Both the position numbers and the translations under genes were made by a program. From Paramacrobiotus metropolitanus (taxonomy: Eukaryota > Tardigrada > Eutardigrada > Parachela > Macrobiotidae), in the NCBI RefSeq assembly GCF_019649055.1, contig NW_026570257.1, positions 1 to 64,000 on the forward strand: a DNA stretch of 64,000 bases. Direction: 5' to 3'. Shown piece by piece: positions 9,911 to 52,145 of the stretch (position 1 is its first letter; the number at the start of each line of letters is the position of its first letter). The notes beneath the pieces are model-generated. The model did no database searches, was not told where the DNA came from, and saw only the letters and a program-made list of their open reading frames with translations.

Positions 9911-9916
9911 TAAAAA

Positions 9917-12623: not shown

Positions 12624-12642
12624 TATTCAGAGCGCATAACCA

Positions 12643-24856: not shown

Positions 24857-27626
24857 ATGCTAGCCAAAATCAATCTTTTACTTATTTCTATACCTTTGAT
24901 GTCGCTAATCGGTCTTGGACAAATTAGTGCTTTCGATTGCCCATCGCGATTTGGCTACTTTCCCGACAAAGTGGAGTGTACGAAATACTATATCTGTAAT
25001 TTTGGAATTGCTTCTCCACAAGATTGTCCCGACGGATTACAGTTTTCCACTCGGTTAGGAAATTGCGACTGGAAGGATAACGTTAAATGCGCCAAGTATA
25101 ACGGTGAGCGCGCCTACCCAGGCTTACACTCTTCTTCGTTAAGTCAATTATAAAAAAATTAGCTATAATTTCCATGAATTTTTGTATGCACTTGCAGTCA
25201 TTTAACAGATCCCAATTAAGCGACAGTTACACATATCGAGACCCTTTAAATCGGCGAGATTAAAACGATGATGACCCTACCCTGTTGCAATTGTTGTCCT
25301 GCTCTACGAGTAGTATGTATATGTATTACTCGTATGTTTTTGTAATCGCTCTTTACAAACAGAATGCGCTAAACCGCCTAACAGCTACAAATTAACCATT
25401 ATGCAGCTACCATTAACCGTTCTCTTCTATCCAGGTTATGCGTACCGTGATGGTGAAGATCATCCGCCGCCGGGTACACCCGAGGTTCCCACGACACCGG
25501 GCATGCTCCTGTATCCCTTGGACGACCCACGAATAACTGAAATATTTGCTCAAACTCGTTAGTATGATTAAAGCACTCTTAATTTAATCGACTATTATAT
25601 GCAGTTAAGGCTTACTGAACATTTTTTTCTTTTTTGTCGATTTAACCCAACTGCACTACAGAAAAGCCTAAACTGGAAGTAAGCCCGGCACAACCGTGTA
25701 TCCCGTCAAGTTGCCAATTACCCAATTGCCGGTGTGGTTCCGCCGATCCTCCCAACGTCATGGATCCCGATGACATTCCTCAGATGATCCTGCTTACCTT
25801 CGAAGGTGCCGTCACTGATGCGGCAATGAATATATATGAGAACACGTTTAAGGACACAAGGAAAAATCCAAATAACTGTCCCATCCGAGCGACATACTTC
25901 GTGTCCCACGAGTGGACGGATTACTCCCATGTCCAGAATCTGGCGAATCAAGGTCACGAGATCGCAGTCTCCGGAATATCGTAAGTGAAATCAAGAACTC
26001 TAGATGGGTTCTTGGTGAGATTTGTCCAATTACAGGCAAGGCGTTCGATGTACCATCATCCATCCTTAAACGGGATTGATGATGGCACGGACATCGAATC
26101 TCTTGCGCATAACTGCAGTTGTCCGACATACCGTACATAGAACTTTTGCACGATAAAAGTTTTGTATCTACGATCTACGTATATACATAATGAATTTTAT
26201 AACACTATTATAAAAATTTTTCTGAATAATTACGCTTAATACAATTTTAATAAAATCAAGATTTCAACTTCCAGTTTTGTGAATTCAGTGGCAATGATTA
26301 ATTTCCGTTTTGTTGTGTTTTGTTGTTACACACCCGAGTAGTCCCTTTACTCTGGATTCACGTGCTTGCTTCACGTGATTAAAATTAACTTTCACTAAAT
26401 GTACAAAACTAACTTTATGTACCTTCACTGTCCGCTTATAAGAATAAAGATGAAATTACAAGGTTTTAGCTGTTCGCGCTTTTTGTCAGCTAACGTTTGT
26501 TATAATGCCTAATTAACTCTGCATTCTCTCTAGAAACGTTGTGGAGTGGATGTTTTAGAGTAGTTGACTACCGCGCAGTTATATTCGTGGTTATTTTATG
26601 TGAACTAAAAAAGTTTTATGTGAACCAAATAAAATTAACCACGTGAATAGCAACTTAAAGAACACAGAGACACGCTTCTTCTGTTACTTTAACGTATGTA
26701 CGGATAGGCATCTGTCCTCTATCAAAATTATCTGCTGCTATAAAATAATTACTAGTAGAATAGATGTATATAATATTATAGCGTCTATTATGCACTACCA
26801 TATGACAGCATCTGTACATAATCGTGATCTGTTTAGATTGCAGTTCAACCGCAATCGGTCAATAAACTCTTGGGAAGACGAAGTCCTAAGTCAGCGCAAG
26901 GTACTAAACGAATTTGCCAAAATTCCTGTGACGGAGATTGTGGGCATGCGCGCTCCGTACCTGTCCATCGGTGGCGACAATCAGTTCCAGATGCTGAGCA
27001 ATAACGGATTCCTCTATGACTCCTCTATGCCGGTTTCTGAAAACGAACCACCATTTTTCTCCTTTACACTGGACTATCGCATCAACAATGACTGTATGAT
27101 CGATACATGCCCTAATGGCTCTTTTCCCGGCATCTGGGAGATGCCCCTCGTGATGTGGAATGATCGGTCGGGAGACCGATGCAATATGGTGGACCAGTGC
27201 ACTGATCCGGAGAATCAACAAGAAGTGTACGAACTCCTGATATCTAACTTTGAGCGACACTACACCACCAATCGCGCGCCCTTCAACATTTTCACCAGTG
27301 CAGCCTGGTTTGCTAAAGAAATGAATCAGCGAGCGTTTTACGATTTTCTGGATACAGTCTTAGATAAGACAGACCAGGCGAAGTATCGTAATGTTTATTT
27401 CGTCACAATGAGCCAAGCGATACAATGGATGAAAAAACCGACTACTTACCGCGATATCAAAACCTTCAAACCGTGGCAGTGTACCGACACACCAAAAGTC
27501 CAGCCTTGTACGAAGCCTAACACGTGCACGCCCTGGTTCGAAAAAAACAAAGAGATCCGTCCCTTTAAAACATGTCGGGAATGTCCGAAAAATTATCCGT
27601 GGATTGGTAATGCATACGGTCTTTGA
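24857..27626 (+). CDS. Chitin-binding, chitin-deacetylase-like secreted protein, copy 2 (catalytic residues lost)
   Basis: Four exons: 24857-25103 (signal peptide plus CBM14 domain in one exon), 25435-25557, 25662-25980, 26837-27626. About 492 residues. It is strongly similar to copy 1 throughout. The first intron of copy 1, between signal peptide and chitin-binding domain, is absent here. Deacetylase motif 1 is TFEG (about residues 169-172) instead of TFDD. HEIA is followed by VSGIS with no HSxxH. The motif 5 His is replaced (FNIFTSAAW). The RGMRAPYL-like motif 3 is kept as VGMRAPYL. A small exon hidden in the 856-bp last intron could in principle supply the missing His motif, but none is visible. 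AATAAA lies at 27940-27945. The likely role is non-catalytic cuticle or chitin binding. Confidence 0.8.
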
Positions 27627-27629
27627 GAC

Positions 27630-28806
27630 CGTGTGCCCGGCATTCGGGTCAATCAAGACGATTGGGGTTCACAACTGTACTACCTGACGCGATGGAATGT
27701 TTTACTCTGCTTATGATTATCGTCCCATTAAATTCACTTTCATGTTATTTCTTTTACCTGAGCGGGTGTTATCGTCGGATAACGGTAACTTTACCTGTAC
27801 CTAGTGAGGCTGATTTTGACTTAGTCAGATTAACTGTCGATTCTGTCTGTACCGGTACATATGTTTAAATTTACATTCGGAAAAGCAGCATCGTATCGTA
27901 CTTTCATTTTTTAGGTTTTGTACCGGTTTGATAGAAGAAAATAAACTACTTTTCGAAGGCATAATTTTTGTTCACTGGCATTCAACAGTTAATATGTACG
28001 CGTAGCCAAAAAAAAAATAAGCTTTACTTACTGTTTATTATTACATGTGTTTACACGTACATACCTCTACATTCTTGATGTGTATTACACGAGTACAGTA
28101 CTTGTATCTTATTTTTCCTCAAAGCCGCCATTTTTTTCTGTAGATGGCATAATCACTGCTACGAATACTTTTTTAAGAACATCTGTGTAATGCGCTTACT
28201 ATAATCTGTTCGTACTGCTGCTTTGAAGAATTATCAACTTTAACTGTGGTTAATTTAGCTAGCGTAATTTGTTATGACTGGAACTTAGAGAATAATCGTA
28301 GGACTTCTATAAAAAAATTGCAAAGTTTAAGAAACGCAGTTTCTACAGAGTGCAGGGATGACATGCTCGTAGTGGATTTAAAGTAGCGGTTGACCGGAAA
28401 TCAATCGCACACACAACGAAAGTAGACACCATTGTCACGATAACTGCGGTTGCCGGTGTTTTCTTTTACAAGGGATTGGGGTTCACATTAGCTACAGGCT
28501 ATAGCGCTGCTAGTTAGTGCTTTTCGAGTGCATTGCAAACATTTAATTGTTCTGTCTACGCCAAACATCGCCGACTGAACAGCGCGGATTTATCTTAAAC
28601 ATGAGATTGATCACAGAGAGGGCGATTAAACTAGCTCCAGCATCCGACAGCTTTATCGTTAACATGCCGCAGTTTCATGAAGCACTTACTGATTCACAAA
28701 TCATTACCTCATCTGCATTTTGATCTTTTATGTTACTCCTGTTTTTGACAAAACGATAAGCGTGGAATTCATTAATAAAAGTTTGTGCAAATAAACTGAA
28801 AAAGTC
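27630..28806. other. Intergenic between copy 2 and the glycosyltransferase cluster
   Basis: The first 400 bp are the 3' UTR and flank of copy 2, homologous to the copy 1 flank. From about 28140 the sequence is unique and AT-rich. No gene is seen. Confidence 0.4.
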
Positions 28807-30228
28807 ATGCTTCATCGCGGCTTGATTTTAAAGCTGTGCATTTTGGGTGCGGCGTTAACAGTACTGTATGCAGTGGTTTCACGATCCTTGAAATCGGAAG
28901 CCGGAAAATTGGCCGAATTGTGGAGCGCTCCCATTTTTAACGGCAAAGCAGAATTTATTGTACCTGAAGATGGTCCTTTATTTCCTGTGCATATTGTGCG
29001 GTTCTACAAGGAACCGCCCACCGCTACATCGCAAGGTTTCTGCTGGACGGAATGTATGAGTCTTCTCTCAGTTATGCTCTACGTCCAGCCAAGTAAAATT
29101 TATATCCATACCAACTACCCTGATTTCTGGCCGTTACGTTCCTGTTACATGATCGTTAACTTTACATCCATACAAATTGTCGGCATCCGCCAACGCTTTA
29201 CGCTTAACGGAAAACGAATTGATGCACTTCATCACGAAGCCGATTTGAATAAGTATAGCGCAGTATACAAGTATGGAGGAATCTCAACCGATACGGACAT
29301 TTTTTACCTTCCAAGTATTCGACGTAAGTTTTAAGTAGGAAGTTAAGAGACACTTGTAAGGTTTTCACTTGTACTTTCCTCATTATAACAATAACAATTA
29401 ACCGATAATTAATCCAACAGAATATGCAACCATTAATACTTTTCTAGTCTTCTTTTTTTCTCGTGTTTGTCTGCTATCTGTATCTTAATCCACAAGACAT
29501 ATTCAGTCATGCAAAAACACAAAAAAAACAAATATTTATTTAAAAAATATCATGAAAAACATACATAAAACTATTTAAGGATTTATCAAATATATTTATC
29601 GCTTATAATATTACATGCCTAAATTAAATTTGCATCAATAATGGTGAGTTCTTCCCTTCTTTCTTTTTTAAAACATTTATAAGCTAAACTAAAAATGAAT
29701 AAATGACAAAAGCGCTGCCACGTTTCTGCAGCCCTCATTAAAGACTGGCGAGAAGGGAAATACGGATGCCTTTTAGCCGAAGAAAACAAGTTCATGAACA
29801 GTGGATTCATTGCTTGCCGGAAAGGTCACCCTTATATCCGCGATATCCTAATGCACTACGAATACGACTATAAGCCGGACTGGTTGTATAACAGCGGCCA
29901 CACTCCCTGGGCGATTTATTCAAACAGCTCGGAATATCAGAAAGACATCTATGTGGACAACACGATGGCCAACCATACATTCCAGTATAACGGTCCAATC
30001 CGATACAAAGAAATCCCGGCATGGCATTCGTACTATCACAAGTGCAATGATACATACGCTAACACCTTCTCAAGGGCGGTTAATTCCACGTTCTGGGAGA
30101 TGCTACACTTCATTCATCAAGAAGGCTGGAAAGTATACCGGTTTCCGACAACACCGGCGACGGTCATAAAAGATCAGCTGTTGGAGCTCCGTGTGCTGAA
30201 GATACTCGATAAATATTTTAAAGGCTGA
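28807..30228 (+). CDS. DXD glycosyltransferase, type II membrane protein, copy A
   Basis: Two exons, 28807-29323 and 29732-30228 (phase 1 junction, GTAAGT donor, TGCAG acceptor), 337 residues. It has a short cytoplasmic tail, a membrane anchor at about residues 8-25 (LKLCILGAALTVLYAVV), then a luminal catalytic domain. Family signs are PSKIYIHTNYPDFWP, HEADLNKYSAVYKYGG and the DXD nucleotide-sugar/Mn-binding motif D162-T-D164, as in Gly_transf_sug/alpha-1,4-glycosyltransferase-like enzymes. The C-terminal half keeps NSGFIACRKGHPYI and the FWEMLHFIHQEGW block. It is predicted to add a sugar to glycolipid or glycoprotein in the Golgi. Donor and acceptor cannot be told. A paralogue with the same intron lies at 39.8-41.2 kb. 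AATAAA at 30525. Confidence 0.85.
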
Positions 30229-30738: not shown

Positions 30739-31405
30739 CTAATACGTGTTCTTGCGGACAACATTGTACACTTTCTTGCCGCGGACGCGGGACGTTGCGA
30801 CAAGACCATTCCGTTCCAAGCAGTCCAGCGATTTGCGGAGTTGATGTTCGGAGCCGGTTTTTCGGAGGACTTTATGCAGTTGGGCCAGTGTCTGTTCGGT
30901 GCGTTTCAGCAGTTCCGTTACGGCTTGAGCTGCCATATCTCCCTGAAAGCATTTGTAAGGACACTGTAACCTGGGTGTCGAAAGTACTGAAATAAACTGT
31001 TTGCGTAATACTAACCCGTTTATATAATACTTTGTAAACAGGCTACGATTTCGATTTTTTTTCTCTGTCAGTAGCCGTTAATTGTATAAAGCGGAAGATA
31101 AACGAATACCTTTTAGTTTTCACTGTGCCTTGCAGTAAATATTACCTTGCAGTCACGTTTGGCCTTCTCGATTAACTGGGTATCGGCCGGGTTACCGGTG
31201 GTTCTAGCCGTGGTCCTTGCGGTGGTTCTAGGTGTGATTTGGCCAGCAACAAGTCCATTATGTATCAACTGCAGCAATAATAATTCAAAATTTATCTTGT
31301 TAAGTGCAATATCTCGAGACAAACTCGATGATAATAATTATTGATGATAATTACCACGCCAATCACAACGACCAGGAAAAAGAGTGAGAAATGTAAGGAG
31401 GCCAT
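30739..31405 (-). CDS. Small secreted winged-helix-like protein, member 1
   Basis: Three exons on the minus strand, all in phase 0: 31405-31355 (17-codon signal-peptide exon, core LFFLVVVIG), 31268-31146 (41-codon Thr/Arg-rich linker with RTTA repeats ending in EKAKRDCK) and 30942-30739 (68 codons with stop). 125 residues. The last exon reads as a winged-helix domain: helix TELLKR, helix AQLHKVL, recognition-type helix HQLRKSLDCLERNGLV, then a wing with two short strands (RGKKVYNVV). A signal peptide on such a fold is unusual. Exon lengths and phases, the CK/DC cysteines and TATA spacing are shared with members 2 and 3. I do not recognise a named family. Confidence 0.7.
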
Positions 31406-31524
31406 GGTAAAGACTGTATGACTGCGTTTCCTTTAAGAAAAGTTGTAATTATAGAGAAAATTAAAAGTTTTATCCAGAGCCAAGATTGATAAATGGTGTG
31501 TGTATCGTGCACCGAGATGCCGGT

Positions 31525-31532
31525 TATTTATA
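31525..31532 (-). promoter_or_regulatory. TATA box of winged-helix-like member 1
   Basis: TATAAATA on the minus strand, 120 bp upstream of the ATG at 31405. Members 2 and 3 have TATA boxes at almost the same distance. Confidence 0.5.
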
Positions 31533-31539
31533 CATGGAA

Positions 31540-32640
31540 CGCAATTTGTTGTATGTCCTCAGGCAGCATAGTGGTCGTGTGTATTTTGTCATTGTATTAC
31601 TTGGAACTTCCGTTCTCTTGGTTTATCTTAACCACCTGGGCGGGTGTTTAGTGTTCGCGTATACTCATTCATAAAATAATGATTCCCACGATAATATTAT
31701 TCGCACAGAAAAAACAATTGCGAGAGACTTACGCGTAGACAAAAAAAACATGGCAGACGAACGCTTGTACGTCGTATTATTTTGATAAAACCACAAAACA
31801 GCAACAAAACAGTGAGTCATAATTAAAGGTGAAATATACAAGCTGCAATACATCAATACAACAACAGCCGCGCAGGTCAATATTAATGTAATCATGATTA
31901 ATTTTATGTGAAAAAACAGGATGTTTTTATTGTGAAAAAACCATTCGGAAAATAATGCACCGAACCTGCTTAGGTTATTAGAAAGAACCACGAAATTATT
32001 GCTTGTCGGATAGAACTGCTTGGAAAACAGCTGAGTCGTGCGTCAGTATTCATAAATGCTTTTCTTCGAAATTTAAACCGGCTTTGATGCAAAACAATGA
32101 CTGACGCCCTTCGAATTTATGTTTACTATTTTATGAATAAACTTGATTAATTGATAAAAAACGCTTGAATAGTTCACGCACTATCGGGTTTGGGCAGATT
32201 TTGGATCCGGATTACAGTGCCACGATGCGTACACCACCAGCCTTGTACAAGTGCGAATGCATTCGTCTTGGTCAAACATTTATAAACACAGAAAATTTAT
32301 TATATTCTGCAAATCAGCGAATGTATTACAGATGTAATTTGCTAATAAAATCACACTTTTTGTACAGATAGGGGTCGATTTTATGTATTTTCAGAATTGA
32401 ATTTTTTCTTTTGGATTATTTTTTTTCCAGCCAAATTGGTGATGCTACAACAGTATCCATTGTTTTCAACGCTTTTCTCTATCGCAGAAGAACTGTCGTA
32501 CCGACAGTTTTTAATTATTACATCTTATACTTGTACATCATTATCTTCGTTGTACGCAGTAATCCACATAATATTATTTTCCTGTACGAAATGCATTGTA
32601 CTGTGTGACGAAAAGCCACACGTTTTTACATACATGTATG
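31540..32640. other. Intergenic, no confident gene
   Basis: AT-rich. A minus-strand frame at 31665-31991 has a hydrophobic stretch (MITLILTCAAVVVL) resembling the signal exon of the winged-helix-like family but is not followed by recognisable further exons. Plus-strand frames at 32165-32678 have no family resemblance. Confidence 0.35.
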
Positions 32641-32647
32641 TCATGTA

Positions 32648-32736
32648 CAGTGGACTTCATAAATGTGGTTACACATAGCCACCCGTATGCATAGCGCTAT
32701 CGGCTTTAAGTGTAACCACATTTATGAAGTCCACTG
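32648..32736. mobile_element. Tc1/mariner-type mini-MITE, 89 bp
   Basis: Perfect 27-bp terminal inverted repeats starting CAGTGGACTTCATAAATG, flanked by TA on both sides (32646-32647 and 32737-32738). The CAGTG start and TA target are characteristic of the Tc1/mariner superfamily. The interior is only about 35 bp and non-coding. It would fold into a near-complete hairpin. Confidence 0.85.
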
Positions 32737-33384
32737 TAGGTTGTACATGTACTTTTCCCGAATGACTGTGAAGTTTTGATGTACCTATTTCACCGCAAGC
32801 ACTTACGTAAAACCGACCGCTACAACTAGGTTATCCAATAATTCATTGCAAGATTGAACCACAGTTTAAACATCATACACCCATACAGTACCATAATAAG
32901 AGTGATTATGAGACGCTCATCCTGCATACAGTTCCAAGGAAGAGGTCGAAATGAACGCTGTGATAGCTGTTGTGGTCGCAAATTTAGCGGTAACACCGAT
33001 ATTTACTGTTATTCACTACGTACGTAATGATTTTTTCGTTAATTTACGATGACAGACAGATACTCTGAGTCTCTGACTCATCTCAAAGTCCCGCAGTTAC
33101 TACATTAAAAGAGTGTTGGCAGTTTGTTACCGAAAACATGTTGACCGGTTGCTTAGCGGGTACACAACCTGTTCATCGAAGGCAGATTTACTACGACGCG
33201 GTTTGTTTTGAATGACACGACTTTTTTAAACGAAATGTTGCAACTGCTTTGAGTAACATGTTTGTTTTTTAGCATCGCTGTAGCGTGCACCGGTGCATCA
33301 TTCAGAACGAGCCAGTCAATGAAGCTTCCGCTAATAAGACGACAACACAGCCTGCAGCAATTAATGTCACCCGATGCTTAGATG

Positions 33385-33391
33385 TATATAA
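33385..33391 (+). promoter_or_regulatory. TATA box of winged-helix-like member 2
   Basis: TATATAA, about 110 bp before the ATG at 33500. Confidence 0.5.
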
Positions 33392-33499
33392 ACTTGCCCA
33401 ATCTAACATAATTATTATCACAATTCGAATCACTTTTCTTCAGCGCTTACTTTTGAGCTTCTCTAATCTAAAAAGGTCACAAATTCTTTGCACTAAATC

Positions 33500-34096
33500 A
33501 TGTCTTTCTTGCGCCCAACTCTGATGCTTTTGGCTGTCGCGGCTGTTTTGGTGAGTGTATTACTGTGTATACAAGCATAATGCTGAAATGAATGCTATTC
33601 CATACCGATTACCCTTAACGTCCACATAACGGCATAGCGGTGTTAAGATTAACCCACTGATTTTATTAACGTTTTAGGTCATACAAAGCGGATCGACTGC
33701 CGGAAGAACCACTACGAAACGCCCGAATTCCAAAGGCAAGGAGACATTCGCGCAGCTGCTGGAAAAAGCCAAGCACGACTGCAAGGTAAGCTTCTCTCAT
33801 CTTCATCGCGGATGACACGTTAGCCCAATAACCAGTACCTGCAGTGACGCATTTTATTGTTTTAGGGTGAGGTCGCCGAGAAATCGCTGGATGAACTACT
33901 CCGACACGCTAAGCAGTCATTCAACGCTAAAGAACTGGCGAAAAAGGTCAGACATTCCGATAGAGCCGTCACAACTGCGTTGGAATGCCTGGTCAAAGAC
34001 GGTCTTGCCAAGGAGAAGCATGAGTACGGACGGGATGTCGCATTCCAAGCAGCCAACGACAATGTGCAAGTCCCTCGTAACGCGCATGCGGCATAA
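33500..34096 (+). CDS. Small secreted winged-helix-like protein, member 2
   Basis: Three phase-0 exons: 33500-33550 (17-codon signal peptide, core TLMLLAVAAVL, GTGAGT donor), 33678-33785 (36-codon basic linker with GRTTTKRP, ending LLEKAKHDCK) and 33866-34096 (77 codons with stop). 129 residues. The last exon has the clearest winged-helix pattern: LDELLRHAK, KELAKKV, HSDRAVTTALECLVKDGLA, then a wing with DVAFQA. Two cysteines, one at the end of exon 2 and one in the putative recognition helix, are present in all three members and could form a disulfide after secretion. AATAAA at 34228-34233. Neighbours are member 1 on one side and the collar-domain gene on the other. Confidence 0.75.
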
Positions 34097-34233
34097 ACGT
34101 CCAATGCTAACAATGTCCAATTTTCTGAATGACAGTTTTTTTTCTGTTTATGCTAATAGACTGTACAGAATAGATAACTTATGAATGTGCATAATTCTTT
34201 TATCCACTTCCAAACTCGTAAAACGCTAATAAA

Positions 34234-34830
34234 ACGGCTAGCATCGTGCAGATGTCTCGAAATGAAATGAAGTCGCTTTAAATACAGTATATGAAAGTTT
34301 CTATCACAACTCACGTTTTATTGCGTTTAAGCGTATAACGTAGGATGTTGTTACGAACAGAATTGTTTTACCTGTTTAAAACTGTGACAACGAATGGAAC
34401 TTTCAGTAGTCACTATGTAATACATTAAACGAGCCAAAATAATTTTCTATTCAGTTAAAATTAATTACTCATTGTGTACTCGTACAATCGGGTTTGACGC
34501 CGCGGAAAAGTGCTATGTCAGCTTTTTTTTAGATATGACCAAACTTCGCTTCCCTTGTTCTCGGTGCACTGATATCACACAAGGCAATCACTTTAACATG
34601 GCCAATACTAGATCATCTAAATGCTGGTGACGACATTTCCGTTTTCTAGCATAGATTCATTTAGAGATAATAATGTTGATCGAGTACATAACAAACGTAG
34701 TCGGCTACTTTCTTCTGTGGGCGAGCGAACATATGGTTTGTGCAGTTCACTTTATTTGTGAATTGTGGCTAACTGCGCATGCTGATTATTCAGTAGTAGA
34801 TATTTTCAACTGTGAACGACAATGACTAAA
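34234..34830. other. Intergenic, no gene seen
   Basis: AT-rich sequence between member 2 and the collar-domain gene, with TACTCGTA at 34477. No coding frame of note. Confidence 0.4.
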
Positions 34831-34834
34831 TGAT

Positions 34835-34840
34835 TATAAA
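34835..34840 (+). promoter_or_regulatory. TATA box of collar-domain gene
   Basis: TATAAA 98 bp before the ATG at 34933. Confidence 0.45.
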
Positions 34841-34932
34841 TTCCAATTCCCACTTGGAGGATTTAGGAAGACTGCCTATGTACCGTAACCCGGAAGCTTG
34901 CACTGACATAAGTAATTCGTTTTAGGAACAAC

Positions 34933-37394
34933 ATGCAGTCCAAGTGGACAGTAGTACTGCAACAGTTGATTGCAGTGTTTCTCGTCAACGTTCATGGTAA
35001 GTCTTCAAGAATGCTGAAGGGATAAAGTTAGGAAGGTAATTGGTATAGTTCAGTGGGCATTAAAATGTAGTAGTGAACCCGGTCATCGCTGTCTTTCATG
35101 TAAACTAAAAACTGACCTGCTGTGTATGTCGGTAATGGGTATTTAATTGTGTTCCTGTTAAACCAAACCGCGCAAACAAACTAAAATACCAGTTTCCTAA
35201 CAGAGAAGGTTTTACAGTTTTGTTCAGTAACGTAATGCTGCGAATGTGCGTCGGAACGATTGTCGTTCATTTTGTCGGAAAACTTTAAGACTGAAAAGGA
35301 ATGTACTGTACATATAGATGGGTTTCATGCTGACATGTTACACAGGTCGACTGAACATGTCCTCGCAGCCTTTCTATACGCTTCCATATCAAGGCATTCG
35401 AATTGCAATCTACAGAGAGGTTAGCGCTGCACGACACAGTCCACTACTACGCTCCAGTTTGTACCCTGCTGCCCACCTCGACAACGGTTCACCTGGACAG
35501 TAATTCATCGCCGTATTCAGTTATCTTCAAGGTAAAGCTCTGGGACACTGATGTGGAAAGCCACGTACGAGATTTTGTGTTGCGAAAAACCGGCAACATG
35601 TCCGTGGAGGTTCTTCCTGTCCCATTCGGCTACGTCCGTTTCCAGTTATTGGGTCATCATAAATTCCGTTTAGCAGAGCAGTGGATACCGCTAAGCACAC
35701 ATCCAGCAATTGCATCCGGCAGAATTCGTTGCACATCGGAGAAGCAGTGCACTCGCATTGCTCGGCAAATTAAACACGACGAACATTTTGCTTCCGATCT
35801 GATGATGCATTTTTCAACACGCAACAGCATTTCTTACCGCAAAACAGTAGTAGACGTCACATTTAACCATATCTTGCTTACCCCTACCTTCACAACTATC
35901 GAATCTCGTGACGGAAATCGTAATTCTGTCTGCATGAAATTTGAGGATTTTACCGATCTGGGTTATGACTTAATGGATGTTGTTTTTGAGAGCGAATTAA
36001 ATGCCGACGAATTCCTGGAAGAGGATCAGGTGCAGAAAGGTCATGCCCGCATTTCCGGATTATTACGGCCCAAAGTCACTTCAACCGCGCATTTAGCTGA
36101 TGGTTGGAACGAGGTCTTCTGGCGTGTGGAAAATGAGCGACCGGATCGCAAGGCGGCTACTTTTACCGAATTATTTTCCAACAACCGGAAATGGTTGCAG
36201 CTGCTGATGAGCGGCAGTCTGACGGATGGCAACAGCAGCTTCACTTTTCCTACTTCCTATGAAACACAAGCTTTCATCGCTGTGATGAAAGACATCCGCG
36301 AATCAGAAGATGTTATTAAGTGGAATGGAGAAGCCTTCATTGTTAAACCGATGGCTGTGCACTGCATAAATATAACCGCTTTGCGTAGCAGGGAGGCCAT
36401 CGGAAAGGTCACGGTGCGAATTAGCAACAGCCATGCTGACTACAGTGCTTTAACGAATTTGAACGCCGCCTCTGCAGAAGCCCCTCGTGTACAGGTAACC
36501 AGCAGCGAAAGTGCGGAAGATCTGGCTGCTGCCAATTTTACCGTGCTGCAACAACAAATGGAAAGTTTAGCAATGGATGCGCACAGAAATTGGAGCTCAG
36601 TTGTGCAGAAGTTCAACGCTCTGAGTACGACGTGTAGCGGCATTGTTAACATCAGCGTATTCAATACCGTGACCAGTCGGTTCCTGTCGGATTTCAATAC
36701 TCTTGCGGAAAAAGTGTCGGTTTTAAAAAATAATGTAACCGAACAAGTTCACAATCTGTTACGGAGAGATACTGAGTTGGAATTAAAAATTACTACAGCC
36801 CTAGGTGCGGATTCGACAGTTGCCGAAACAACTAACAAGATCAGCATGCTGCGCAGTGACCTGCAGGTCGTCAAAGAAGATCTGGTGAGCTTGAAAGCAA
36901 ACGATGCGACTTTGGCACTGCAAATTCAACAGCTCAACATCCTTCCGATTGGGACGATTGTCGCATTTCCAACTGGCCACGTTTTACCATCGTGTTGGTT
37001 AAAGTGCGACGGACAGTATTTCAGTTCTCTTTCGTATCCGCAGCTGGCTCGGATATTCTCTGATCAGCGACTTCCAAACCTTGCAGGAAAATTCCTTCTG
37101 GGTCCTGATACATCGGAATATCCACTCGGCAGTACGGGCGGGGAAAAACAGCATTCACTGACACAAGCGGAGATGCCAAAGCATATCCATGGAGTTGAAT
37201 GTGATGGTTTCTTTCTCACGTTCAATAAAAAACACCCAAAAATATATTACGATATTAATAATGCAGACTGGGAATCAACCAACCAAACCGGAAACTATAT
37301 TGGATGGAGCCATACGACGGCTGCCGGAGGCAGCCAGCCTCACAATAATATGCCGCCATATTATTCCGTTCTATACTACATCCGTGCATGCTGA
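34933..37394 (+). CDS. Secreted coiled-coil protein with C-terminal phage tail-collar domain
   Basis: Two exons: 34933-34996 (signal peptide, core LIAVFLVNV, GTAAGT donor, phase 1) and 35416-37394, about 680 residues. The second acceptor was chosen because it joins exon 1 in frame to the long open frame. Another AG at 35345 leads to an early stop. The N-terminal 350 residues form a globular region I do not recognise. Residues about 380-525 are helical, coiled-coil-like with heptad spacing. Residues about 530-680 match the phage tail-collar domain: LPIGTIVAFP, WLKCDGQ, LPNLAGKFLLG, MPKHIHG, and GGSQPHNNMPPYYSVLYYI at the end. The layout resembles a phage tail fibre fused to an animal secretion signal. 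The collar domain is probably of phage or bacterial origin (inference). It is likely a trimeric extracellular binding protein. Confidence 0.8.
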
Positions 37395-37810
37395 ACATAC
37401 CTCATTCAGTACTCCGCGAAAAATTGTGCACTGTTGCAAAACAGTGTCCTGTCCCCAACCAATTTTTTTTAGTTTTTATTCGAACGAATTTTTAATTCCT
37501 TATTCTAATAAGTTTTTAATTCATCCTTTCGCATTGTTGGAAATTCTTCTTCTGTGGTCTTCCTAGATTATACAATGGCAGTAATACTCAACAAATACAA
37601 GCGTCCAAAGTAGTTGACTCACGCAATGCCCAAAAACCGCTCATAATAATTATGTTCTATGTCTGCTGCTCTGTATATTAATTTGAAACAACCCGAAAAC
37701 TGAAGCAGCGTTTTAAAGTTTTATAAGGTGTTTCAACTTGAAGTCCAGCCAAATCTTTCATTTTCCGTTTTCCGACTTCTCTTGACGTATAATTACCACT
37801 GTTCACAATA

Positions 37811-38026
37811 ATGTCCATTCTCATTCTTCTCATAACGTTCACCTCAGGCACTCATGACCCAGCTTCTGTGGACAAAAAAACTTCTTGTCCAGGTCTCCAG
37901 ATTCCGGATTTCATGTCATTTGAACGATTGGTTCAAAAAGATCCACGAAATGTGCGTAACGCATTAATTTTATCGTATGGCAAAAGGCGGAAACTGAGTC
38001 GGACATTTTTAATCATTCCTATTTGA
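37811..38026 (+). CDS. Doubtful short secreted peptide frame
   Basis: 71 codons beginning with a short hydrophobic stretch (MSILILLITFTSG), then a polar region with one Cys and a basic end. It lies just upstream of winged-helix-like member 3. It does not show the family cysteine spacing or helix pattern. It may be a chance frame or the degraded first exon of another small secreted protein. Confidence 0.2.
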   Translation: MSILILLITFTSGTHDPASVDKKTSCPGLQIPDFMSFERLVQKDPRNVRNALILSYGKRRKLSRTFLIIPI

Positions 38027-38248
38027 ACAATTTTTTGCAAAACTGAACTTGAATGCAGTAAAACGTCGTTGCATAACACAAAACTTTCTATTGTTACTAT
38101 TACTGCGTAGTATCTGTGCAGCTTGCTTTACAGTTACCTGGGTGCTGACAACAAAACGGACTAAAGGATGCACAGCTGCTTGCGCTATCTTCCATCCGGT
38201 CAACTTCGCCATAATACCGGATACGATGTCTTGCACGGAAAAGTCAAA

Positions 38249-38256
38249 CTATAAAA
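38249..38256 (+). promoter_or_regulatory. TATA box of winged-helix-like member 3
   Basis: TATAAAAG 131 bp before the ATG at 38380. With members 1 and 2 this gives TATA-to-ATG distances of about 110-131 bp in all three genes. Confidence 0.5.
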
Positions 38257-38379
38257 GCTTACTGCACTTAGCACTTACTTCACGCAGTTCACTAACGCCT
38301 GACATTATTGCACGTCAAAATCTTTTGCGAGAAAATATTACTTTTTTCGACACGAAAAGGTCATCCGTTTTTAGTAATC

Positions 38380-39045
38380 ATGGTGTCTGTGTGCGCTTCC
38401 CTTCTGCTGTTAATCGTGGTGATCGGCGTGGTAAGTACATAGTTTTAACATTTTTTATTGTCACAGTACTTAATTATTCATAAAGATGTTATAATGCTTG
38501 AGAAAACAGTTATTTATCAACGACACTTTGCAGATTCTGCCTACTATATCAGCACAGCCTGGCCATCATCATAGCCCAGTCGAAAAAGCCAAGTTTCGAT
38601 GCAAGGTGAGAAGTTTAAAATTGCAAAGGCAAATATTTATTAGTTATTATGTATGATGACACTTGTTGGATTTCTAGTAAATTTGGATTTCTAGTAACGT
38701 TGGATTTCTAGTAAATTTGGATTTCTAGTAACGTTGGATTTCTAGTAAATTTTGAGATGCGGTACCGGTTCTTTAGTTTTTAGCGGACTCAGTATAACTG
38801 ATTTTTGATGGATTTTCTTGCAACTTTTAGGTCATTTTTTATCAATATTAATTATGGATTTTATGCTGCAGGGAAAGGTGGCTGGTGATTTAATGGGCGA
38901 GTTGCTGCGTACCCGTACGCTGTTTGTTGGACCACGCGAATTAGCCGCCAAGGTCCGTGCCCCGGAACACCAGGTCCGGGAGGCGTTGGAGTGCATGAAG
39001 CAGAACGGTCTGGTAACGGATTCCAAAGTCTACAAGGCCGTCTAA
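38380..39045 (+). CDS. Small secreted winged-helix-like protein, member 3
   Basis: Three phase-0 exons: 38380-38430 (17-codon signal peptide, core SLLLLIVVIG, GTAAGT donor), 38534-38605 (24-codon linker with HHH, ending VEKAKFRCK) and 38872-39045 (58 codons with stop). 98 residues, the shortest member. The last exon has MGELLRTR, RELAAKVRA, EHQVREALECMKQNGLV and a truncated wing (SKVYKAV). The signal-exon length of 17 codons, phase-0 introns and conserved Cys pair are identical in members 1 and 2. AATAAA at 39191-39196. It lies 5' of glycosyltransferase B. The second intron contains a 17-bp tandem repeat. Confidence 0.75.
38666..38752 (+). repeat. Minisatellite of 17-bp units in intron 2 of member 3
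   Basis: Five tandem copies of TTGGATTTCTAGTAAAT/TTGGATTTCTAGTAACG, alternating in their last bases, so the higher-order unit is 34 bp. Confidence 0.9.
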
Positions 39046-39818
39046 TTGTTGACCTTTCGTTACGACATGCTGCTGTCTGTTAGAATACCGAAGAGTTGGT
39101 GTTTTTTGAATTTCGTGGCACGGTGTTCGTGCATAATATCGAGCGGTGTGCAAAATGCGATTGCCTGAATGATTTTGAGCATTGTTATTAAATAAATTTC
39201 CAAACAAACTGGATATATGAATATGTCGAGCATTTTGTGGGAAGAAACAAAGAAACAACACATTAACTTTATTACGAGGAACTGCTCTGGGTAACAACCA
39301 CGGGAAAATTTACCAAAATTGTTTAGATTCTGCGCTGGATTCGAGTCATTAATAATAATCAAATGAAACGATTAACAGAGAACAAAACGCTGCTACATGT
39401 TATGGATCGTTAGTTTGTAAAATTTTCATATCAGTAGCCGAGACCGCAAGTCAAGTGGAACCGTGTGCAACAATGAAATGCCTGGTGCAGAGCGCACTCG
39501 ATTGGTTTCCCGCATACTTCACTGCTGATTGTGTTAAGACAACGTTTGTTTCAAGTACGCTCTTCCTGCGCTCTCTAAGAGTATTTGCAAGGTAAACCAC
39601 AGCAACCGCCATCTTTGTTTCCACTTCAGATAACTATATCGAATCGTAGTTGTATTTGTCAAGAAATGAATGTCTTGCCAAGATATCCAAAATAAGTATT
39701 CATTCTTTTCAAAATTATTGGCATTTTTGGACAAAAAAAAATTGATTACCTTGAGTTTGTTAGCCAGAATTGGAAAACAGGAAGAACGCGGCTCTTTCCG
39801 AAGGCATATAATCAACAA

Positions 39819-41228
39819 ATGAAATATCGGGATGCCATTCAAAAACGCCACATCTCGTCACACCATGCCGCAATCTGGAGGACCACTGTTTGGGGCGTTG
39901 CCATAACCGCAATCTACACCGTGCTATTTTTATTTTACGGATTTCACTCCCACCAGTTCTATGATGATGATTCCCATAATTCGTTGCACATCTCTGGTGT
40001 AGTCCACGGATTTCCGGTGCACCTTGTGCGGTTTTATAAGACTTCGCCCGGTGATCTCGATGTCTTTTGCTGGACGGAATGTCTCAGCATTGCCTCGATT
40101 ATTTTGTATGCCCAGCCCAGTAAAATCTACATCCATACCAACTACCCGGACTTTTGGCCGTTTACTCCGTGTTATATGATAGCCAACTATTCCCTATTTG
40201 AATTTGTTAGCGTGCACCAGCGGTTTACGTTTCGTGGCAAGCGCATTGATAATCTGAATCACGAGGCAGATTTTATCAAGTATGATGCGGTGTGGAAATA
40301 CGGCGGCATGTCGACGGATACGGATGTATTCTGTCTTCCCTATATGAAGCGTGAGATAATTCCTGATTTTATTTCTATAATCTTGTTATTATTTTCTATA
40401 ATAATTATAATAATCTTCTTAAACTCTTCGAGTTATTAACACCATACAATACAATCAAATACTTCGACAAATATTTACCATTAGTGTTACTAATAGTATT
40501 TACAGAGAAATTAATTTTAATAGGACCTGTTTTACTGTTTCCGGTTACTCCTTAACACAAAAAATTCTAAAAAAGGCAGAACATTAAGCAAATAAATAAA
40601 ATTTTCTTTTTGCTTTCTTATGCGAGAAAACTTACAATTCGAAATTTTTTTGGCAGGATTAATTAAACAGTGGCAAAAGGGAAATTACGAATGCCTACTC
40701 TCACAAGAAGGAAACGTAACCAACAGTGGATTCATTGCGTGCCACAAAGGTCACCATTATATCCGCGCCGTGCTGGATCGTTACGAAACGGATTACCAAA
40801 CAGAGTGGACATACAACAGCGGTACCGTACCGTGGCAAATCTACGTTAGTAACGCTTCTTACCGGAAGGATATCTACATGGATACCGTAATGTCCAACCA
40901 TGCCATCAACTACAGTGGTCCGATTCCGTACAAGAAAATCCCGGCATGGCATTCTTACTATCACGGTTGCAGCGACACATACGCTAACACATTTGTCCGA
41001 GCGGGTAACTCATCGTTTTGGGAGATGCTGCATTTCATCCATCATCAAGCCTGGAAACGGTTCCGGTTTTCTACGATATCTCCGAATATTATCCAGAAAC
41101 AGATTAAGGACGAGCGGTTAGAGCTGAAACTGTTGTCGCTACTGGATGAACGCATCGGATTGAATGGGATCAATAGCAAGAAAGCACTTGATCCTTTTCG
41201 TCCCACCGTTAACCAGCAAATATTGTAA
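39819..41228 (+). CDS. DXD glycosyltransferase, type II membrane protein, copy B
   Basis: Two exons, 39819-40350 and 40657-41228 (phase 1, GTGAGA donor, GGCAG acceptor), 367 residues. The N-terminal tail is basic, then a membrane anchor (about residues 22-42, TTVWGVAITAIYTVLFLFY). The luminal domain is closely similar to copy A: HLVRFYKT, CWTECLS, PSKIYIHTNYPDFWP, HEADFIKYDAVWKYGG, and DXD at D167-T-D169. The intron lies at the same codon position a few residues after the DXD motif. The C-terminal region keeps NSGFIACHKGHHYI and FWEMLHFIHHQAW and has a 30-residue extension not present in copy A. Golgi glycosyltransferase; donor and acceptor unknown. Confidence 0.85.
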
Positions 41229-41921: not shown

Positions 41922-42926
41922 GTCGTTTTGCAAACAGTAGCCTTTCTCGTAGTGCACATTAACACGCATCATACCGTGTTTGAATTATATTTTATTGCAC
42001 TTGAGCATCTTATTTCCTCTTAAGATAGAACTTTGTACAGCAAGACAGCTGCCAAGGTAGTAAAACCTTTCGAAAAGCAAAAGTAATTGTGCGGTATTTA
42101 AAGTGCATGCAGCCGCATTACACAGATTAAAATTTGAGTGCGTACTCAAAAGCTAAAGTGAAAAAAACGGTCCGGCGTAGTATACGTTCTACCACAGTGC
42201 ATGTGAAGGAGATACGCCTCTCTTTTATAATGCATTACGGTTCTAAAACACATAAATTTTCTGAAAAAGCACAGGCAACTAATAACGAGTAGCAATCATG
42301 TTTTATTATAATATAATTTGTTTTATTAGATCACACAGCGCTGCACCGGCGAGCGTTGACGTTGCCACTGAAAGCTTTGCTTTTTTGTTATTTAACGTAT
42401 GACATAATTATAACATATCGAAGTACCAGTCGGACTTGCTAATCAAAATGTTTTTAGATATCGCAATATTGTATGCAGTAACTAAGTATACAAGTACAAT
42501 ACTTTTAAACTTTGAAGACGAGATCATGCGCCTTCGTACAGATACAGCAACTCAGTGTGGCTCGTACCTTAGTAACCATTGCATTATACCAAACTCAAAT
42601 GCTTCGGCTGATTTATGTTTATCTATGTATTTAATTACTTAAGTAAGTACTTACGTTACATAGCACTTAACGTCCACCGTAATACTTATGCGTTCCCAGG
42701 GTACTGAAGTTTTACTTTTATTTTCAGTGAATGTAAACTGTGTCTGGAAAGCATTATACGTGGAAATTCAAGAGTACTTAACCCAGTCTTACTGGATTGT
42801 CAGTGCAGAATGCGGAGTAGGTTTTAGATTTTTGCACAGCTCGACGTATTATGCACGTACCTCAAGCACTAAGCAGTGACCTTTAAGACGTTTTGTATAG
42901 TCTTGCTCAATATTACATAATACTTT
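41922..42926. other. Intergenic, no gene seen
   Basis: AT-rich, about 1 kb. The frames at 42436-42642 and 42688-42879 have no family resemblance or splice logic. The CAG at 42929-42931 (TTTGTGCAG) could be an acceptor for the following gene. Confidence 0.4.
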
Positions 42927-42974
42927 GTGCAGCTGGCTCGCGGTATTAAATTCTGGGGAGCATGTTCCGGAATA

Positions 42975-44177
42975 ATGATAAAGTTATCTAATCTCTCTTG
43001 CTTAGTATTCTTTATAACTAATTTTGTACTGTACCCAGTTTTGCTCCTTTCTGCCCACAACATTCACCAGATGTCCCAGCCGAAGTACTTCCTCAGCGCT
43101 TGCGCCATGATCAAGAACGAGATGATCGTCGTTTTAGAATGGATCGAATTCCACCGTATCCAGGGCGTTGATCACTTTATTTTCTTCGATGACGAGAGCA
43201 CGGACGATATTTATCTCCTTCCCCGTTTCTATGCCTCAGTAGGTATCCCCGATCTTGTCGAAATCATTCCGCAAAATTTCCGAAGGCGTCACCCTCCCAG
43301 CAAGCATTCCTACCGCGAGTACGACCAAGGCCAGACGCAGGCGTTAAACCACTGTAACAGCCGTTTAGCCGGCGTCAGTCAGTGGATGATAGTCTGCGAT
43401 GTGGACGAGTTCTACTTCTCGCCAAAGCATTACACCATCGCCAACTTCCTGCGGAATTACAAGGATAAGGAAGTCACTCAGTTCCGAGCCCATGCTATTC
43501 GTTTCGGGTCCAGTGGCATCCAAAGGGAGAACCCAGTCCATTTGTTGCTGGATCCGTATAACGATACTTTGTACGTTAAAGCGGATCTGCTAAATGGGCA
43601 AATGTTGCTCACAGTACGCAACAACAGACGCGCCCCTTTTCGAGACCTGGACAAAGACTACGATGCGCGCTATAAAGAAATTTGCGTAGCGTCAGGAAAT
43701 CCCATCGATTGTCAGCACGCTATTGGGAAGACGATTTGGCGACCGGATAAGTGCGCATTGGCCGGCGTACATTGGTGCGAGAAAGGTCTAGTTGGCAAAA
43801 GCATAGTTGCCCAGCTGGATGACCTTCGTATCAATCACTACGCATTCCGCTCGCAAGAGCACATGGATAATTAACCGTGGAACCAAATGGGAACCATAAA
43901 ACGCAGGGTGTTCAAAGCCTTCAACTTCATTTGGTTTTCCCTTGTAAGCGATAATTCGACGGAATCATATCGCAAAGAGTTGGTGGAGAGACTCAGTGCA
44001 TTCCCTACCGTCATGACCATTCATCCAAAAGTGATTAATTCCGAGTGGAATGCCTCGTATGCTTTCATTAGTCGTTATAATACTGCTTTTACATATATTC
44101 CTTCACAAATAACCTACATCACCATAAACTGCATTACGATATTTTTCAGATTATACGTATCAGCTTGTTCAGTTTAG
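42975..44177 (+). pseudogene. GT92-like glycosyltransferase with in-frame stop
   Basis: It starts at the ATG at 42975 with a membrane anchor (LVFFITNFVLYPVLLLS). The catalytic region follows: YFLSACAMIKNEMIVVLEWIEFH, GVDHFIFFDDEST, the DVDEF metal-binding motif at about residue 142, and a conserved C-terminal RINHYAFRSQEHM. This order is that of GT92 (former DUF23) beta-galactosyltransferase-like enzymes of invertebrates. TAA at 43872-43874 interrupts the frame, yet the same frame stays open for another 100 codons to 44177 with coding-like composition (WNQM..., ELVERLSAFP), as expected from a nonsense mutation of a once longer gene. A sequencing error, a short unrecognised intron or genuine termination at 43874 are alternatives. 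An upstream exon is possible because of the CAG at 42929. Confidence 0.65.
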
Positions 44178-46310: not shown

Positions 46311-47583
46311 TGACGGATCCTTTGAGGAGACGGTGAAGGCTTCATTTTCGGAGAACTCGTCAGGAACCTACACGTCACTGTCAGATTGATTACTGAAGTA
46401 ATCTCTGCTCTGACTTTGATCGGACTGATCTTGCCGTCTTACAGCTGCGGAAAAACGAGGATCACTGAAGTGATTCTCCCCACAGCTGGTGAGCACAGTT
46501 TTCTTGGTCTCTTCCACATTGAAGAGCATCCCAACAGCACGGACATTTTCCTCCCAACTGACGGATCAGACTCGAACGAGAGTCTGCAGCGCGAACGGAT
46601 TACTCCTATAATACGGGGACCTTCGGTTTGAACACCGACCCGCAACTTTACTCGCGGATTTCTTCACGGAAACGACGGATTTCCGACCTCGGACGGAGGA
46701 AATCCAGCGGAACCGACACCGACACCGACACCGGTAAAGTAACGGTTCTAGGTCGATTTTAGCCGCAACTAGGTCGGCTTTTCATTTTCTAGCGGTAGAA
46801 AACGATTTCTAGCCGTAAATCTTAAATTTCTAACGGTTAAAAGGTAATTTCTGACGGAGAAACCGACTCGGAATTTTGCTTTTGGTCGAGAACCGATCTG
46901 CTAGGTCAACGAACCTGTCTAGACAGTTAGACAAAGGCTAACCGGCAACAGGTCGGAAACTCTTTCTTTTGATTTCTAACGGTGTTTCGACCACCAAGAA
47001 ATTTTCTTAATTAATAAAAATAATTTCTCACGGTTAAAAACTTAAAAATCCGAGCTAGATAGACTTTCTAGCCGAGCGAAAATAATTTGTTATTCTAACA
47101 GAAAATAGCGCTAAAATTCTTGAATTTCCTTGTGACATCATAACGACCGATTATCAGTACTTAAGGAGCAGCCAATCAGAGTGCAGGGGAAAGTTCCCAT
47201 AGCTTAACATAGGCGTGATTCATCGTTTTTTTTTAAATTTTGCACGCGGCTCGCATTCCGTGACGTAAGCAGAAGTGCAAGACCACTTAACCTGTTACGT
47301 CACACTGGTCAGCACAGTAACATAGGACGTACTACACCGTACTACTATTACGTACTGTACTGTACCATTGTACTGTATATTAACACCCTGTGTACTGAGT
47401 CACCAACAGACACATCAACAACAACAACAACATTTCACCGGACGTTCCTGACCCTCGGAAGTTCCTGAACAAAAAGACGTTCCTGATTTCACCGAACATC
47501 TTCACACAGAAGATTGTTCGACTTTCTCTTTCTTACTGATAAAAGTTTTAAGGCTCCACCAGAGCCGACCTGACTCGACAACG
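46311..47583 (+). other. Untranslated leader of the giant element
   Basis: About 1.27 kb with no long frame. It has about six degenerate copies of TTTCTAACGGTTAAAA between 46780 and 47040, a short ACCGAC triplet run near 46711-46735, and a GTACTGTAC-rich stretch near 47320-47390. It could hold packaging or internal promoter signals (inference). Confidence 0.5.
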
Positions 47584-48495
47584 ATGTCGAATCCCCGAGA
47601 GAACGAACACGCGAGAAAGTTCAACACGGACTATTCTCGGCGTGCGAATACGACCGGCAAGTACTCACTCCGGTACGCCGACCAGGACAACAGCCAGCCG
47701 TCCTCAACCGACTCGACTAAGTCGGCTGAAGCAAAGGAGAGGCGCAATGAACGAATTCTCCTTGCCGACTCGAATCCAACCTCGGATGACAGTTTCGAGG
47801 ACGTCAGGGATAAAACATTCCTGGATACCCAAGCTGACGTAGCAGCCCCGTCCCACCCGACAGGGGGGGATGTGGAACAGCTGCAGGTAGAGACCACATT
47901 GTCTCATGCCGACCAAGAGTCGAGCTCACACAGAGCTCAAGACTCGGTACCGGCCACTAGAGCCAACGAGCTCGGACGGCAACCACCCAACAGGACAGAC
48001 GGAGTGCCGAAGCCGACCTCGCCCAACACGGACGCACCGACTAACCAAGTCGGAAGGCAATCGCCGACCACACAGGCCGAGCGAAAATCACCAACCAGGC
48101 AAGTCGGGGAACAACAACCGACTAGCCAGGCCGACCAAAAGAAGGTCGACCTACCATCAGCCCCAGAGGTCAAACAATCGACCTCGACTGGAATGGAAAA
48201 GCTGGCAACAGATGCCAGCAAAGCCCAACCGACCACACAGATCGGAAGGATTTCACCGACTTCGAAGGACGGTCAACAGATACCGACCTCAGAGGTCGGA
48301 GAAAGGAAGTCGGCAACAAGCAACCGACTTCTCTGGAACGGCAACCAACCGACACAAAGTCGGATGCGACCGTCCAGCCGATTAAAACACCGACAGGAAC
48401 GGAAGATTCCGAGGTACCGCCACGAAGCGGCCCTCACCCAGCCGGATCGCCGACTAGCATACCGGCACCCAACGAACGGGCTATTTCACCGTTGA
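47584..48495 (+). CDS. gag: Giant element ORF, N-terminal Gag region (frame-broken at its end)
   Basis: 303 codons from ATG at 47584. It is disordered and rich in Thr, Pro, Gln and Ser, with repeating phrases such as PTTQ, SPT, QVGRQ and PTSQ that read like a degenerate tandem repeat of 10-12 residues. From about 48315 coding character moves to another frame, and a tandem 8-base duplication (GTTGAGCC twice, 48491-48506) sits just before the start of the next large frame. It therefore looks like the front of the same Gag protein, detached by two indels. No enzymatic motif. Confidence 0.6.
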   Translation: MSNPRENEHARKFNTDYSRRANTTGKYSLRYADQDNSQPSSTDSTKSAEAKERRNERILLADSNPTSDDSFEDVRDKTFLDTQADVAAPSHPTGGDVEQLQVETTLSHADQESSSHRAQDSVPATRANELGRQPPNRTDGVPKPTSPNTDAPTNQVGRQSPTTQAERKSPTRQVGEQQPTSQADQKKVDLPSAPEVKQSTSTGMEKLATDASKAQPTTQIGRISPTSKDGQQIPTSEVGERKSATSNRLLWNGNQPTQSRMRPSSRLKHRQERKIPRYRHEAALTQPDRRLAYRHPTNGLFHR

Positions 48496-48499
48496 GCCG

Positions 48500-51400: not shown

Positions 51401-52084
51401 GGCGCGGCAGCGGCGAATCTGAATCCCCGAGCACCTGGACTTGGAGCCCCCGTTAACAACTACGGAGGCCCAGGTTATAGCTCGGGCGGTAACCAAAACA
51501 ACACAGGTTTTGGTTACGGACAGAACTTTAACCAGGGATACTCCGCCTACGGACAGTATCCTCCACAAGGATACGGCGGCGGAGGCTATGGTCGCGGAAA
51601 AGGACGCGGTGGCGGGAATCGCGGCCGTGGAAACTTCCCTAACCGCGGCGGAGGCGGCGGCCCACAAGGCAACCGACCTCCCCAAGCACAACAAAGTGCT
51701 CGGCAAGGGACAACTTATGTCGACAAGATGGAGGCAGCCTTCTTCCAGTGGACGAAGGACAAGACCTTCAGATGCAGGCACTGCATGTTTAACAACCATC
51801 ACGAGTCGCGCTGCATCTATGGGTCGGATAACAATCCGAACCTTCGGTGGTACGACGATTGGTACCGCCGATACTCGACGAATGGCCCGGTTGGCTCGGC
51901 TAATCCCTTCTGGAAGGATATCGTGCCACCGCCGCGTCAACGCCAACAGGCAGGCGGCTCGGGTAGCCCCGGTAACGGAAACGGTCACCCGGCCAGGGGA
52001 GTGGTGGAAACCGCAACAACAGCGGTGGGAACCAACAGGGTTCCCCGGTATACAGAGAACCGTTGCCGCCCCGCCAGTCATTGA
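48500..52084 (+). CDS. gag: Giant element Gag: coiled coil, capsid domain, RGG box, CCHC knuckle
   Basis: 1194 codons, open from a TTG. The first in-frame ATG lies further downstream. Order: Thr/Ser/Pro-rich region; long coiled coil at about residues 120-430; Gln/Pro/Asn-rich linker (450-720); capsid-like retrotransposon Gag domain at about 725-895 (SFDGDH, LQGWLKQI, FEQRFADKN, PEQYYDAMM); Pro/Gln-rich stretch; Gly/Arg-rich RGG-type box (about 1025-1065); and a canonical CCHC knuckle C-x2-C-x4-H-x4-C at about 1092-1105. It packages the element RNA. The 300-residue coiled coil is unusual for gypsy Gag proteins, which are normally 300-500 residues in total. Confidence 0.85.
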   Translation: MSRPSPTGSESTRATEAQQTVKSTKATQSRPVDLKTKPSPPMFETSELGSTPTPTDDVFGTTDMSRPSSADGFFTTPPKSNKDSLGYQASALEYTAKKWTAATPPEKINDLDLLRARCHKLITQIVLADRIVDSAEGSLRNSEDTHKLERRRWERDMADANKGIALQQREIDRLNAILKRADLPCRYEDDQIAMLNGKLDRSTAAVFEIKHELDEAYKALEEAKKELADVQTALVESEMAAGAFHQQLNQANEEAEVYRNEVDRYAAELKKADNEIYRLTQRTDELESEMELLFTRMGRRFIDANARDMGFPNQRTADVDLVEANAQLADQVHGLNQVLKEEQKLRTQLEYSLSEAQKVNEAQHNRIAYLEAREVELYEFGEQAARNLTEMMRQMDEMDTETRCLREEKKHLEQSQADPPSYRTSMAQDQQPSRTISDILWGIDPAQEAAKKENNTSYFVGVLTTDPSVGTIPQPPTVPSAPEPEHNTSTAAPRVPTSNAATTTSAGAYTSTSYATRTTMYAPAPNGNGDRIQNVERPPIPLLRPSMEAYRAPRTNSNPNFLRQNLQFDFERGRARSFNMDDQQQGGRNEESSDQQGRRPPNRPVQGRMPDLGTQPGRYGRVYDQPSGFYPQAPRQNRAPPPQQHGGQQQQPRYDDQAQAPHPQQDGYDDQYEPAHHQQVYGDQQAHMPYANLPTAPAAQQAELLAQLIPPAQDPKHVAIVRAIAHGRRQPIPSFDGDHTKLQGWLKQIRSLHRQAQQWYEDDQTFMADLVAQLDGQAEHWHTLEAAGEPLGGWPVNVWLTKFEQRFADKNKEVNMISRINKRIFRFGEETPEQYYDAMMFMKSQVPTMTDQRILYHLKENIHEPKLREALVIKMPATPIELRDYLRSFVNGKEMYEVRKQRDGDYARVRAVTPTPAPAPPPAIPQQTGYQPHMMPGYQTPTAQYGQLSPAPTPPVQQAPVQQQTWAGAAAANLNPRAPGLGAPVNNYGGPGYSSGGNQNNTGFGYGQNFNQGYSAYGQYPPQGYGGGGYGRGKGRGGGNRGRGNFPNRGGGGGPQGNRPPQAQQSARQGTTYVDKMEAAFFQWTKDKTFRCRHCMFNNHHESRCIYGSDNNPNLRWYDDWYRRYSTNGPVGSANPFWKDIVPPPRQRQQAGGSGSPGNGNGHPARGVVETATTAVGTNRVPRYTENRCRPASH

Positions 52085-52145
52085 ACTCGACGCCACCCAA
52101 CAATGGGCCGGCTCGGAGTAACTCCCCGGGAAACGTCCAAGGTCG

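Follow-up and report, generated by a model that had tools for sequence, protein, structure and literature searches.

A small family of putatively secreted winged-helix proteins in the tardigrade Paramacrobiotus metropolitanus

Results

The stretch of DNA analysed here (the window) spans 64,000 nucleotides of Paramacrobiotus metropolitanus, a tardigrade of the family Macrobiotidae, i.e. positions 1 to 64,000 of contig NW_026570257.1 in assembly GCF_019649055.1. It carries three short genes, which we call A, B and C, that share one three-exon plan: an exon of the signal-peptide type, a linker exon ending in EKAKxxCK and a last exon with a predicted winged-helix domain. A fourth gene with the same plan, D, lies on another contig. 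The features of the three genes in the window are as follows.

31527..31532, minus strand: TATA box of gene A, at -127 from the ATG
31355..31405, minus strand: gene A exon 1, 17 codons, signal-type
31146..31268, minus strand: gene A exon 2, linker rich in Thr and Arg, ending in EKAKRDCK
30739..30942, minus strand: gene A exon 3, putative winged-helix domain (fold by homology to D) and stop
33385..33390, plus strand: TATA box of gene B, at -115 from the ATG
33471..33479, plus strand: AAAAGGTCA leader motif of gene B, starting 29 bp before the ATG
33500..33550, plus strand: gene B exon 1, 17 codons, signal-type
33678..33785, plus strand: gene B exon 2, linker ending in EKAKHDCK
33866..34096, plus strand: gene B exon 3, putative winged-helix domain and stop
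38250..38255, plus strand: TATA box of gene C, at -130 from the ATG
38355..38363, plus strand: AAAAGGTCA leader motif of gene C, starting 25 bp before the ATG
38380..38430, plus strand: gene C exon 1, 17 codons, signal-type
38534..38605, plus strand: gene C exon 2, His-rich linker ending in EKAKFRCK
38872..39045, plus strand: gene C exon 3, putative winged-helix domain (75% identical to the modelled D) and stop

A first-pass annotation, made from the letters of this DNA, had drawn this plan for the three genes, and it held when measured. Exon 1 has 51 nt (17 codons) in all three, all exon lengths are multiples of three, so that the introns are in phase 0, and GT-AG borders are found at 6/6 introns. 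A TATAWA motif lies upstream of the ATG at -127 (A), -115 (B) and -130 (C), as had been said of a TATA box 110-131 bp before it. The span of the cluster, given as 8.7 kb, is in fact 8307 bases (8.3 kb). The spliced genes encode proteins of 125 (A), 129 (B) and 98 (C) amino acids. Those of A and B are identical, letter for letter, to the NCBI proteins of LOC129589905 and LOC129589740, respectively, and hence the same junctions were drawn by another gene caller. No counterpart of C was found among the proteins retrieved by family profile searches (105 and 4162 candidates). The leader motif AAAAGGTCA begins 25-29 bp upstream of the ATG in genes B, C and D, and gene A keeps only GTCA of it at the aligned place. 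This motif may be a regulatory site or a trace of common descent. Counting both strands, it occurs six times in the window, the leaders of B and C accounting for two of these, so that by itself it proves little.

Members of the family were sought in the whole assembly (169.8 Mb, 533 contigs) using three single exons, one full-length query, a hand-made consensus and a motif pattern. The exon-3 search gave a match on the minus strand of a contig that we call C61 (C61:588038-588208), with 75% identity to C in the domain. This match is the last exon of gene D (C61:588776-588035, minus strand), which encodes 101 amino acids in total and has a TATA box at -106. Its first two exons are the following.

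C61:588776-588726, minus strand: gene D exon 1, 51 nt
C61:588626-588546, minus strand: gene D exon 2, read upstream of exon 3

Since D was absent from the material on which the first-pass annotation was based, it provides an independent test of the gene plan. The three members counted there are all in their place, but the family has at least this fourth one elsewhere, and a search of the genome for other members, which had been proposed as a check, did bring it to light with the plan intact. With no mismatch allowed, the motif EKAKxxCK plus a splice donor matches at four places in the assembly, one each in A, B, C and D. When up to one mismatch is accepted there are eight matches, against three for a reversed control pattern. 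The motif thus occurs more often than expected by chance, and the four places with one mismatch were set aside because the control also gave three. A pattern with fixed codons had no match, being too strict, and an extra match of the hand-made consensus (E 2.2, two stops) was dropped. Divergent members may have escaped these searches, as the one with exon 3 of B failed to retrieve A.

Exon 1 is strongly hydrophobic in the four genes (best 12-residue Kyte-Doolittle mean 3.3-3.7) and plausible signal cleavage sites can be placed by eye. The proteins are thus predicted to be secreted. The mature proteins have isoelectric points of 9.1-10.4 given these cleavage sites, i.e. all four are basic, and each contains exactly two cysteines, 42 residues apart. 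The claim that both cysteines are kept in all members therefore extends to D, with the same spacing. In the structural model of D one cysteine is placed at the break that precedes helix 1, the other within helix 3, and the two probably form one disulfide.

This AlphaFold2 model, computed for D as the only one of the four members, is a winged helix (helix 1, helix 2, helix 3 and a two-stranded wing) with an extra N-terminal helix. Its top matches among solved structures are TFE-alpha, Z-alpha domains and RPC62. The sequence-profile matches of the family are weak, yet many of them are to winged-helix families; they favour the fold least for A taken singly, whose four NCBIfam matches are mostly to other proteins. 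Ten positions are invariant in the four-way alignment of the domains (G1, A4, E10, L11, L12, L39, C41, G46, L47 and V57). The winged-helix pattern noticed in the first reading is thus recovered in the model of D and, by homology and profile matches, in A, B and C, and we assign this fold to the family with fair confidence. None of the four domains scored above the cut-off of a Pfam or NCBIfam model, in line with the earlier remark that no named family with this plan is known.

How fast do these genes evolve? Over exons 1 and 3, the comparison of C with D shows changes at 27 of 57.2 synonymous sites and at 19 of 164.8 non-synonymous sites, with dN/dS of 0.168. The excess of synonymous changes is highly significant (p 6.7e-8, Fisher test on counts cut to whole numbers). 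Exon 1 taken separately gives dN 0.15 versus dS 0.74, for 17 codons only. In the introns and flanks of the two genes the longest alignment is at most 17 bases. The low dN/dS and the unalignable introns and flanks indicate constrained coding genes, and the C/D pair is under purifying selection. The suggestion of a fast-evolving family is borne out by the linkers and by how far A and B lie from the other members, but not by the comparison of C with D.

Relatives were found in P. metropolitanus only: three of three matches were from this species among 105 candidates, and the same three among 4162, in a database whose tardigrade coverage is not shown. As a check of this coverage, an exon of the neighbouring deacetylase gene gave 62 matches, and no tardigrade was named among the matches listed, so that the absence of the family from other tardigrades is not established.

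Other features surround the cluster. A gene on the plus strand between B and C (34933-37394) has a first exon that is hydrophobic (its ATG is at 34933, with a presumed join to the next exon) and a long frame with a phage tail collar domain at its end (PF07484, above cut-off with E 1.3e-7). Its last 164 amino acids match a minor tail protein of a Microbacterium phage with 34% identity over 95%, and 305 phage records match. This has the look of an animal protein that has acquired a phage tail domain. An inverted repeat at 32646-32738 (CAGTGG...CCACTG, with TA at either end and 32-nt arms that are 97% complementary) resembles a small element of the Tc1/mariner type. The cluster is flanked by two related glycosyltransferase genes (28795-30228 and 39696-41228; Gly_transf_sug, one just reaching and one exceeding the cut-off), and beyond the second lies a GT92 gene (42921-43874). 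A NodB/chitin-deacetylase-like gene is present in two copies (17785-19889 and 25646-27626); a search with one of its exons gave named relatives, and the exon scanned against Pfam had no match. Two similar frames with leucine-rich repeats lie at about 8.0-8.8 kb and 21.1-22.2 kb, the Pfam scan covering the second only. Finally, long frames at 9914-13644 and 47452-62685 resemble retroelements. These labels are by reading only: one has a reverse transcriptase and a recombinase-like frame (DIRS-like), the other is a Gypsy-like gag-pol.

Discussion

Among the domains found inside cells, winged helices are some of the most common. The matches of the D model to TFE-alpha/TFIIE-alpha and to the N-terminal extended winged helix of RPC62 (POLR3C) are at 18-21% identity, and these are transcription proteins, nuclear or archaeal, without a signal sequence. 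TFE/TFIIE-alpha is the best structural match of D, yet no such model is among the Pfam matches of the family, and the HTH_9 model (RPC62/RPC82), with its cut-off of 23.4 bits, is missed by all members (13.6 for C, 13.5 for B, 13.2 for A and 18.0 for D). The Z-alpha domains of ADAR1, ZBP1 and PKZ, which also figure among the top matches, belong to intracellular proteins and read Z-DNA through an Asn and a Tyr of helix 3, the ADAR1 signature. With the register set by eye and anchored on the Gly after helix 3, the Asn position is R, R, T and R, and the Tyr position E, E, E and D, in C, D, B and A, respectively. We rejected Z-alpha identity; no Z-alpha model is among the Pfam matches listed at E up to 1.

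The top matches to profiles of PDB entries are AdcR and HlyU (E about 0.01), which point to the ArsR/SmtB and MarR regulators of bacteria. Three of the four members match the NCBIfam model HTH_metalloreg (best 5.6e-4), far from its cut-off of 55 bits (14.1 for C, 17.4 for D and 19.7 for B, with no match for A), and B misses the MarR cut-off of 24.6 bits with 13.2. Unlike these regulators, the tardigrade proteins end soon after the wing and are encoded by intron-bearing animal genes with a signal-type exon. In being short, basic and cysteine-bearing, and in having a signal-type exon and clustered paralogues, they resemble the small cationic defence peptides secreted by animals. They differ from these by the winged-helix fold and the single cysteine pair, and an antimicrobial role would be an analogy drawn from charge and size.

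In the literature searched, no paper was found under exact phrases for a secreted, extracellular or effector winged helix. LOC129589905, LOC129589740 and LOC129593406 are not named there either, nor in the main text of PMC11191345, which gives a genome of 170 Mbp, in agreement with the 169.8 Mb of the assembly. Among the matches listed there is at least one precedent for a secreted winged helix: a table of PMC6849628 gives the winged-helix annotation IPR011991 for PhRXLR-C07, an RXLR effector of the oomycete Plasmopara halstedii. This protein of 325 amino acids is located in the nucleus/cytoplasm and nucleolus of the plant cell (PMC6849628). It is a secreted protein with a winged helix by annotation, as the tardigrade proteins are by prediction, but the organisms are unrelated and the likeness is one of description. 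Two other candidates were discarded: the winged helix of PMC12750041 is that of a bacterial regulator, and that of PMC8914235 stands in a count of transcription factors. Given the annotation of PhRXLR-C07, a secreted winged helix is not entirely without precedent.

Our preferred reading, which we hold tentatively, is that A-D form a lineage-restricted family of secreted, cationic and probably disulfide-locked winged-helix proteins that likely bind an extracellular polyanion. The four paralogous genes would give small proteins whose hydrophobic signal sequence, made of exon 1 and a few residues of exon 2, would be removed in the secretory pathway. The mature protein would consist of a linker, short and quick to change, followed by the conserved helix with EKAKxxCK and by a compact domain of the winged-helix type, probably locked by one disulfide from the Cys before helix 1 to the Cys near the end of helix 3. 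Being basic, it would bind a polyanion outside the cell, which could be nucleic acid, or else the anionic surface of a microbe or of the matrix. We infer this ligand from charge and fold, and likewise infer a role of the defence or protection type.

The closest competitor is a secreted winged helix that has lost nucleic-acid binding and serves purely as a protein-protein scaffold, e.g. as a ligand, an inhibitor or a part of the matrix. Winged helices frequently act as protein-binding modules. Here helix 3 is not uniformly basic, charge varies widely among members, and the invariant positions of the alignment look like core and cysteines rather than a conserved contact surface. This makes the scaffold a serious if doubtful proposition, to be set against the basic character of all four mature proteins, which fits polyanion binding, and the lack of a known partner.

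A different doubt concerns secretion itself. Exon 1 might not work as a signal peptide for the main product, and the proteins, or an alternative isoform, might be intracellular winged helices binding DNA or RNA, where this fold normally resides. What weighs against secretion comes from D. In NCBI, D is LOC129593406. Its cluster representative, isoform X2, has 85 amino acids: it begins with an M placed immediately ahead of exon 2, and the signal exon is missing from it. This first M could come from an ATG with an adjoining splice donor (C61:588903), which lies upstream of the TATA box of D and is one of three such ATGs in that stretch. The earlier claim of secretion thus keeps the hydrophobic N-terminal exon of all four genes on its side but not this NCBI isoform of D, and because of isoform X2 we still consider a nuclear or cytosolic role, as less likely than the secreted reading. 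Indeed, we judge the intracellular alternative improbable: 17 strongly hydrophobic codons are present in exon 1 of the four genes and constrained between C and D, the NCBI proteins of A and B contain the signal exon, and two cysteines at constant spacing suit an oxidising space. It is far less probable still that C, or all members, are prediction artefacts or decayed copies. That no retrieved protein matches C would fit such a view, but open frames, canonical splice sites, the TATA box and leader motif in common and the strong excess of synonymous changes between C and D speak against it.

Returning to the secreted, polyanion-binding family, one might speculate further that a tardigrade lineage exports a disulfide-stapled winged helix to capture or shield DNA or RNA outside the cell, in defence or for protection during drying, and that at least D can be made in either a secreted or an intracellular form, depending on the choice of first exon. 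We regard this as rather unlikely. The broader case is that of a small gene family seemingly built to send a winged helix out of the animal cell, which is unusual. The fold is old; what would be new is its extracellular place, its small size and its occurrence in a lineage-restricted animal family. The four proteins are compact and easily made, they come with clear predictions (one disulfide, polyanion binding), and they belong to a group of animals, the tardigrades, that is studied for its stress proteins.
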